Below are positions 1-38,192 of a DNA stretch of 38,192 nt, piece after piece. Positions within the stretch are counted from its first letter, which is position 1; the number at the start of each line of letters is the position of its first letter. The translations under genes and the position numbers were made by a program. Below the pieces are notes generated by a model. It was given only the letters and a program-made list of their open reading frames with translations. It did not search any database and was not told where the DNA came from. This DNA comes from an uncultured Nitrospinota bacterium (GTDB taxonomy: Bacteria > UBA8248), in the NCBI GenBank assembly GCA_947258645.1, contig CAMYJL010000002.1:1-38192 (forward strand), given 5' to 3'.

Positions 1-629
1 CCGGAGTTCCAGGAAGCGGTGGCCCGGGTCGTGGGTGCGAGCCGAGACCCCCTGCCTCCCGAGGCCGCCCCTCGCTTGGAGGCGTTGGCGGCAGACGGCG
101 CCCTGGCCATCCCGGAAGCCTGCCGGCTCCTCCCCGAGCTGACTGCGATCACGTCGGTCAGCAGTTCGGGATCGGCCCCCGCGGCGACGCCGAGTGCCAT
201 CGCCTCGGCCAGGGCGGCGAGATTCACGTGGGAGAGCATGTTGTTCACCACCTTGAAGAGCATGCCCATGCCGGGGCCGCCGCAGTGAAAGATATTTTTC
301 CCGAAAGGCTCGAGGACGGGCCGCAGACGCTCGAAGCCCGCCGCGCTCCCGCCCACCATGAGCGTCAGCGTTCCCGCCTCCGCTCCCCCCACTCCGCCGC
401 TCACGGCCGCATCCATCAGCTCCGCTCCACGCGCCGCGGCGGCGGGCGCGAGCTCGCGAATGAGCGAGGGCGAGACCGTACTGGCCTCGGCGACGATGGC
501 GCCTTCCGGGATCGCTTCGAAAATGCCGCCCTCCCCGGTCATCACCTCGCGGGAGATCGCGGGGTGCGGCAGGGAGGTGAAAACCACCTCGGCCCCCGAG
601 GCGGCCTCGCCGGGACTCCCGCAGGGCGC

Positions 630-721
630 GCCGCCGAAGGGCTTCATGGCCGACACCGCCTCCTCGCGGATGTCGTAAACCCCCACCGCGTGACCGCTCT
701 CCAGAAGGTGGCGGCAGATGT
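630..721. repeat. Copy A of a dispersed 92-bp repeat (5' part of the dehydrogenase-like gene)
   Basis: Aligns without gaps to 1216..1307 with about 7 mismatches counted by eye. Confidence 0.9.
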
Positions 722-783
722 TGCTTCCCATTCGGCCGAGGCCGACGAAGCCTTGTTTCCCATTCGGCCGAGACCGACGAACC
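720..783. repeat. Imperfect tandem duplication, 32-bp unit (ttgcttcccattcggccgaggccgacgaagcc / ttgtttcccattcggccgagaccgacgaaccc)
   Basis: Two adjacent copies with three differences by eye; 32 is not a multiple of 3. Confidence 0.85.
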
Positions 784-990
784 CGATATTCAAGACGAGT
801 TTCCCCCCTGCGTGAAATTCATGCCGGATGAGCCGGAGTCACTGGTTTGCACTGTGAGAAAGAGTTTAGCAGACAACAAAAGAGGACGGCACGGAAGGCG
901 GCGGCGGAGCGGATGAGGCCCGGACGCGAGTCCGGCCACCGTCAGGCGAGCGCCCCCGTTCCCCTTACCACGAAAACCCGCGCGGCCTCT

Positions 991-1131: not shown

Positions 1132-1215
1132 GGCGCCCCCTCCTTCTTTTCAATGTAGGTCCTGCACGGCCACCCGGCATCAGCGGGTATCCCTCCCGGG
1201 GCCACTGCAGGGTTT

Positions 1216-1307
1216 GCCGCCGAAGGGCTTCATGGCCGCCATCGCTTCCTTACAGATGTCGTAAACCCCCACCGCGTGACCGCTCTCTAGAAGGTGGCGG
1301 CAGATGT
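1216..1307. repeat. Copy B of the 92-bp repeat; orphan fragment encoding ICRHLLESGHAVGVYDICKEAMAAMKPFGGKPC on the minus strand
   Basis: Near-identical to 630..721; no dehydrogenase sequence recognised on either side. Confidence 0.9.
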
Positions 1308-36371: not shown

Positions 36372-37448
36372 CTAGCTGAGGGGAAGCTCGACGGGCTGGT
36401 TCGTGGCCGCGCTCTTCTCGATGGCGAGCGTCACCTCGAGCGTGGTCCGTGCCTCGTCGGGCTTGGTGTTCGGAATGGCGCGGCCGGTGGCGGCGTGCTC
36501 GAGGAACAGGCGCGTCTCGTCGCGCATGGGGCCCCAGAACTCCCCGAGGGACCAGTCGCCCGCCATCATCGATTCGAGAAAAACCACGTCCGAGGAAGCG
36601 TCCGGCGCGTAGGGAGAGGGCATGCCCTTGTTGGTTGCGAGGATGACGCCCTTGTGGGAGTCGTCGATGGTGATGGCCCCCTCCGAGCCCATGATGTCCA
36701 TCCCCATCGTGGTGATGTGCGCGGGCCAGTTGTCCGGGAAAATCCACGAACACCCGAAATTGATGTTGCTTCCGTCATCCAGCGTCACGATCGCCCAGGC
36801 CCAGTCGCCCACGTTGTTGGGATGCGGAAAAATCTTGCTCCCCCCCTGCGCGTACACCTTGACGGGCTTTCGCCCCTCGAAATACCAGAGCCCGATATCG
36901 ACGACGTAGGTCAGCGTATCGGTCACCGGGCTGGCGTGGGGCGAGCGCTTGTAGATTTCCGCGCCGTTGCTCTTCGGGTTGTAGAGCACCATCCGCGAGG
37001 TGAGCAGCTTCCCCAGCCGGCCCTGGCTGATCTGCTCCTTCGCATTGAGATAACGGCGCCGGAGACGCTGGGTGTAGCCGACATGGAGGTCGCCGTCATG
37101 CTTCCGCACGGCCTCGATGATCTGGTCCGCGCGCTCCAGGGAAAGCTCGATCGGTTTTTCGACCAGCACCGTCTTGCCCAGCTCGAGCGCCCGGCAGACC
37201 GGGTCAGCGTGCGCGTGCTCGGGCGTCGAGACGATCACCGCCTCGACATCGGGATGGGTCAGGACAGCTTCGTTGTCCATGGAATGAAAATCGGCCTTCA
37301 CCTCCTCCGCGACCAGTTTCACCCGATCCCCGTCGGGGTCGGACAGCGCCAGAAAACCCGCCCGCTGATCCCCGGCCACGAGATTCGCGCGCAGGCGGCC
37401 CATGCGCCCACTGCCGATGATGCCAACACCCACTTTCCTGAGAGCCAT
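36372..37448 (-). CDS. Gfo/Idh/MocA family oxidoreductase
   Basis: 358 aa; VGVGIIGSGRMGRLRANLVAG, VEAVIVSTPEHAHADPVCRALELGKTVLVEKPIELSLERADQII. Confidence 0.92.
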   Translation of the reverse strand: MALRKVGVGIIGSGRMGRLRANLVAGDQRAGFLALSDPDGDRVKLVAEEVKADFHSMDNEAVLTHPDVEAVIVSTPEHAHADPVCRALELGKTVLVEKPIELSLERADQIIEAVRKHDGDLHVGYTQRLRRRYLNAKEQISQGRLGKLLTSRMVLYNPKSNGAEIYKRSPHASPVTDTLTYVVDIGLWYFEGRKPVKVYAQGGSKIFPHPNNVGDWAWAIVTLDDGSNINFGCSWIFPDNWPAHITTMGMDIMGSEGAITIDDSHKGVILATNKGMPSPYAPDASSDVVFLESMMAGDWSLGEFWGPMRDETRLFLEHAATGRAIPNTKPDEARTTLEVTLAIEKSAATNQPVELPLS

Positions 37449-37451
37449 TCG

Positions 37452-38192
37452 TTATCCTTTCAGCGGAAGATCCACGAGGCCGCCGCCCTCCCGGGCGCTC
37501 CTCTCCATCGCCAGCGTGAGTTCCAGGACATCCCGCCCGGCTTCGGCGCCGCAAAGCGGAACATCGCGGCCGTCCCGCACCCGCTCGACGAAAAGGCGGG
37601 TCTCGTCCCGCATGGGGCCGTAAAAATCCCCCTGCGCCCAGTCGCCCGGCATGGTCGAGCCGAGGAAAGCGACTTCAGCGCCCGGGACGGGCGACGGCGT
37701 CCCCCGGTTCGAAACCATCATCACATCCCTGTGCCCGTCGTCCACCACGACGGACCCCTCGCTCCCGAATATCTCCATCCCTATCGAGCAGATGTAGGCC
37801 GGCCAGCGCTCGGGCAAAATCCAGGAACACCCCATATTCGCCGCCGCACCGTCCTCGAACGTCACGATGGCCCAGCCGTAATCGCCGATACCATCCGGCT
37901 GATCCGGAAAAATCTCGCCCCCGCCCTGCGCGTAAACGCGTACGGCCCTGCGGGGAGCGAAAAACCACAGCGCCATGTCCGCCATATAGGTGAGCGAGTT
38001 AGTGAAAGGGCTCACCATCTCCGAACGGGCGTACATCTGCCGGGCGTCGGCCCGGGAGTGATAGATCGAAAGCCGGGCGGCCATCACCTCGCCCAGGCGG
38101 CCGGCCTCGATCTGCTCCTTGATCGAAACATACCGGCGACGGAGGCGCTGGGTGTAGCCGATGAAAAGATCGGCCCCCGATTCCGCCCGAGC
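37452..38192 (-). CDS. Gfo/Idh/MocA family oxidoreductase, partial at window edge, tandem paralogue of the preceding gene
   Basis: Open from the window end; FIGYTQRLRRRYVSIKEQI...LTYMADMALWFFAPRRAVRVYAQGGGEIFP...GCSWILPERWPAYICSIGMEIFGSEGSVVVDDGH aligns along its length with 36372..37448. Confidence 0.88.
   Translation of the reverse strand, partial: ARAESGADLFIGYTQRLRRRYVSIKEQIEAGRLGEVMAARLSIYHSRADARQMYARSEMVSPFTNSLTYMADMALWFFAPRRAVRVYAQGGGEIFPDQPDGIGDYGWAIVTFEDGAAANMGCSWILPERWPAYICSIGMEIFGSEGSVVVDDGHRDVMMVSNRGTPSPVPGAEVAFLGSTMPGDWAQGDFYGPMRDETRLFVERVRDGRDVPLCGAEAGRDVLELTLAMERSAREGGGLVDLPLKG

Follow-up and report, generated by a model that had tools for sequence, protein, structure and literature searches.

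Why should a dehydrogenase gene encode the same glycine-rich motif twice in succession, in two reading frames of one strand? The gene lies on the minus strand at the left end of the analysed window, a stretch of 38,192 nucleotides that forms the entire contig C2 of a scaffolded MAG (4.29 Mb in 509 contigs). Base 1 of the window is therefore a contig end, and the repeat that carries the doubled motif is located ~0.7 kb from it. The repeat is most likely no biological feature at all and, if it is one, marks an ordinary pseudogene.

The doubled motif and its reading frames

The repeat consists of two 32-bp units placed side by side, at 721–752 and 753–784, which are identical at 29 of 32 positions (91%); TRF describes the array as 721–781, with a period of 32 and a match of 93%. 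No adjacent units of 20–60 nt with at least 90% identity were found in 200 base shuffles of the window. Both units encode GFVGLGRMG. Unit 1, which comes 5′ in the gene (753–784, minus strand; GGGTTCGTCGGTCTCGGCCGAATGGGAAACAA), shares its frame with a TTG codon at 791–793, and unit 2 (721–752, minus strand; GGCTTCGTCGGCCTCGGCCGAATGGGAAGCAA) shares its frame with the body of the dehydrogenase. The units differ at minus-strand unit positions 3, 12 and 29, which corresponds to two silent changes at third positions of Gly codons and one Ser/Asn change.

The TTG codon (minus strand) is preceded by AGGGGGG, a plausible ribosome-binding site, and occupies the same place as the GTG or ATG start of related genes. 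Translation from this codon (793–791) opens with MNIGFVGLGRMGNKASSASAEW... (MNIGFVGLGRMGN), passes through unit 1, then departs from the body frame and reaches a stop after 49 codons. The body frame, which includes unit 2, opens after a TGA at 821–819 and contains no ATG, GTG or TTG between that stop and the motif; its first ATG (731–729) lies within the GRMG of the motif itself. The extra 32 bp equal 2 mod 3, and start and body are thereby set in different frames. Inspection of the frames and the 29/32 identity thus confirms the first-pass annotation in every detail checked: the motif is encoded twice in adjacent units read in different minus-strand frames, the upstream copy has the TTG start and runs out of frame into the body, the downstream copy is in the body frame with no start before its motif, and three positions distinguish the units. 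That annotation had also taken the three mismatches to exclude a copy artefact. They do exclude an exact stutter, but overlapping ends left unmerged, whether strain variants or error-bearing, still fit.

A programmed −1 frameshift could in principle carry ribosomes from the TTG frame into the body frame, giving a protein with two copies of the motif. A slippery-type heptamer, GGGAAAC (755–761, minus strand, read 761–755), lies within unit 1 and is in the zero frame when translation begins at the TTG, and a −1 shift at this site leads into the body frame, yielding ...GRMGNQGFVGLGRMGSNICRH.... Such heptamers occur at 12 of the 8168 zero-frame codons of 19 genes in the window, making the presence of one among the ~15 useful codons a ~2% event. 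However, the RNA downstream folds no better than its shuffles (z values of −0.13 and −0.49), the frame of the relatives is continuous and needs no shift, and GGGAAAC exists solely through the extra unit. With neither a fold signal nor conservation behind it, the frameshift proposed at first pass has almost no support, and we regard it as exceedingly improbable.

The dehydrogenase and its relatives

Counted from the ATG at 731, the body of the gene (126–731, minus strand) comprises 202 codons and shows neither gaps nor stops relative to its relatives, with which it shares 69–72% amino-acid identity. It matches PF03446 (NAD_binding_2; E value of 1e-43) and PF14833 (NAD_binding_11; E value of 2e-12, over positions 1–56 of 122 only, that is, the first half), as well as solved beta-hydroxyacid dehydrogenases. 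Its TIGR01692 score of 194.9 bits is below the cut-off of 291.6, a shortfall explained in part by truncation of the query. Because this curated cut-off is not reached, the gene is named at family level only, as a predicted 3-hydroxyisobutyrate-dehydrogenase-like (3-HIBDH-like) beta-hydroxyacid dehydrogenase, and not by substrate. The likeness to the PF03446 + PF14833 / TIGR01692 family resides in strong matches to both the Rossmann and the C-terminal helical domains and in an intact catalytic KxxNN region; in contrast to the family, the N-terminal motif is doubled out of frame and the C-terminal third is missing.

A clear ortholog is found in eight related genomes (69–79% amino-acid identity), all from outside the genus of this MAG; among named relatives, Nitrospinota/Nitrospinae MAGs come nearest. 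Differences between the body and these relatives fall mostly at third codon positions, and the catalytic motifs are kept over the 202 codons. Comparison of orthologous loci, which the first-pass annotation had put forward as a check, shows a single copy of the motif, directly after a GTG or ATG start and in a continuous frame, in all seven relatives whose start is readable (L013–L019). The second unit is therefore extra and derived, not ancestral.

This arrangement also bears on a phase-variation-like switch, in which slippage would gain or lose 32 bp and thereby toggle the gene off and on. Dropping one unit does restore the exact arrangement of the relatives. Nevertheless, the array has just two units, which are imperfect, none of the seven readable relatives has two, and a cytosolic metabolic dehydrogenase would be an unusual target for such a switch. 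The suggestion, likewise made at first pass, is left with almost no support, and we consider it highly improbable. Even when both routes are counted together, it is still very unlikely that the units are real and that the gene depends on −1 slippage for its expression or is switched as one unit comes and goes.

The 3′ end of the gene and a neighbouring fragment

Homology of the body to its relatives is lost at ~119–126, and the contig-terminal stretch (1–118) is without homology to their C-terminal part. The terminal 118–144 nt matched nothing in Pfam, no family above noise level and no DNA in the sequences compared, and a search across the assembly for the missing C-terminal third found none at ortholog-level identity. 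The stretch 1–118 represents either a real break or a chimeric end, and is possibly chimeric. Its plus strand is open in frame 1.

Upstream of the gene, at 1196–1307 (minus strand), lies a 112-nt fragment of the same dehydrogenase gene (ICRHLLESGHAVGVYDI...), 88% identical to 610–721; the repeat formed by these two segments ends exactly where the tandem starts (721). Relative to its length, the fragment is rich in non-synonymous changes (dN 0.11, dS 0.26). By itself it is unremarkable, since other contigs of the MAG also carry short local duplicates of gene pieces. On C12, for example, the 3′ end of a gene (693–975) is repeated downstream in decayed form (1320–1527), the two flanking a small ORF. 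Two origins for the material around the motif were considered and rejected. Derivation of unit 1 or the 1196–1307 fragment from a paralogue elsewhere is at odds with the other homologues in the assembly, which are at most 39% identical. That unit 1 and the fragment are halves of one lost gene copy would explain why they share a boundary, but several rearrangements would be needed to bring the pieces into their present order. Between gene and fragment, a small minus-strand ORF of ~47 codons (994–1132) begins with hydrophobic residues, carries AAGGAGG ahead of its ATG and has no Pfam match. At the right contig end, two adjacent paralogous oxidoreductase genes (36497–37081 and 37583–38161) share 66% DNA identity.

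The main rival to a contig join is that a real 32-bp slippage duplication frameshifted the gene and made it a pseudogene, with the lost 3′ end and the 112-nt fragment as further outcomes of one decay, that of a gene formerly present as a tandem duplicate. The end of homology at ~119–126 with no C-terminal part left, a second gene fragment rich in non-synonymous changes and further local duplicates such as that on C12 all agree with such decay. As in frameshift pseudogenes made by short tandem duplication, a 32-bp insertion (2 mod 3) parts the start from the body; unlike them, the body shows no further decay. Indeed, internal stops and indels are absent from its 202 codons and the catalytic motifs are preserved, yet the units differ by 9%; it cannot be a long-dead gene unless the units differed from the outset. 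The position near a contig end, common to the only other frame-breaking tandem detected (on C34, described below), also speaks against a pseudogene. Of the three readings offered at first pass, this one stays a live rival, while frameshifting and switching are almost unsupported; we judge it plausible but less likely than a join.

Tandem repeats and joins across the assembly

Tandem arrays were surveyed in the first 101 contigs (1.9 Mb of the MAG), with a unit of at least 22 bp, fewer than 2.6 copies and a match of at least 88%. Eleven arrays were retrieved, and in nine of them the unit is divisible by three. The other two, on C2 (32 bp) and C34 (71 bp), both lie less than 1 kb from a contig end. 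In the C34 tandem (820–965), YMEAVQMLSGQGGWPMSMFLLPDL of a thioredoxin-domain (YyaL-like) gene appears in two copies read in different frames, which breaks this conserved gene ~0.8 kb from the contig start. Among 17 relatives the match to this gene is uninterrupted in 15, split across contigs in one and absent in one.

The numbering of the contigs provides a view of how they were built. It follows length, except that 45 of the 101 contigs are longer than their rank would allow. Nine contigs contain N-gaps, and in six of them (C14, C53, C56, C75, C82 and C84) the gap lies where this excess predicts, an agreement confirming that the excess represents an attached piece and that contigs were joined after sorting. 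The C34 tandem is located at a rank-predicted join. The rank of C2 allows an extension of 0–740 bp, the junction being at 720/752; a 752-bp piece exceeds this limit by 12 bp unless C3 gained length as well or the overlap is counted a single time. The length rank of C2 is compatible with a join at the repeat, and no proof of it. An exact, in-frame 45-bp tandem on C48 lies ~0.75 kb from a contig end and not at a rank-predicted join, so that closeness to a contig end is not decisive alone.

Given a scaffolded MAG, a repeat ~0.7 kb from the contig end and another frame-breaking tandem that coincides with a predicted join, assembly error, which the first-pass annotation had listed solely as a refutation, becomes the best-supported explanation. 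We infer, rather than observe, that the junction in C2 is a join; what is observed is that an extra copy exists, that relatives lack it, that it lies near a contig end, that the assembly is scaffolded and that C34 offers a like case at a predicted join. The doubled motif is thus probably a false tandem duplication, in which two overlapping contig ends were abutted and not merged. A short piece (~1–752) and a long piece (~753–38192) would have shared a 32-bp segment of the gene at their ends, its two versions differing at three bases as strain variants or as error-bearing ends. Scaffolding or gap closing would then have placed these ends in series with the overlap unmerged, adding 32 bp and shifting the frame of a gene that would truly have one copy of the motif and a normal start. 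The edge of the 610–721 / 1196–1307 repeat may have been a natural stop for the assembly graph. The exact match at the repeat edge is 19 bp, short for a k-mer break, and counts against a join; a gap-free, stop-free body favours it over an old pseudogene whose units had time to diverge by 9%.

Duplicated overlapping contigs are a described class of assembly artefact (PMC2864568), and false duplications in assemblies have also been treated elsewhere (PMC9516828). The repeat resembles these cases in its adjacent, near-identical copies from ends due for merging and in their small variant differences. It differs from them in that they concern vertebrate haplotypes and longer overlaps, whereas here a bacterial MAG would have an overlap of 32 bp, with strain variants in the metagenome acting in place of haplotypes. 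The case serves chiefly as a warning: when a scaffolded MAG shows an imperfect tandem close to a contig end and the unit is not divisible by three, the repeat can mimic a pseudogene, a frameshift or a switch, and length-rank excess combined with N-gaps can reveal such assembly seams without reads. Repeats of another kind were seen in one relative (G010), which contains an abundant dispersed short repeat, its copies giving ~50–70 matches in 11 of the stretches read (L108, L110, L113, L119, L123 and L125 are noted for it); the unique repeats of this MAG (G000) are unlike it and show no such multiplicity.
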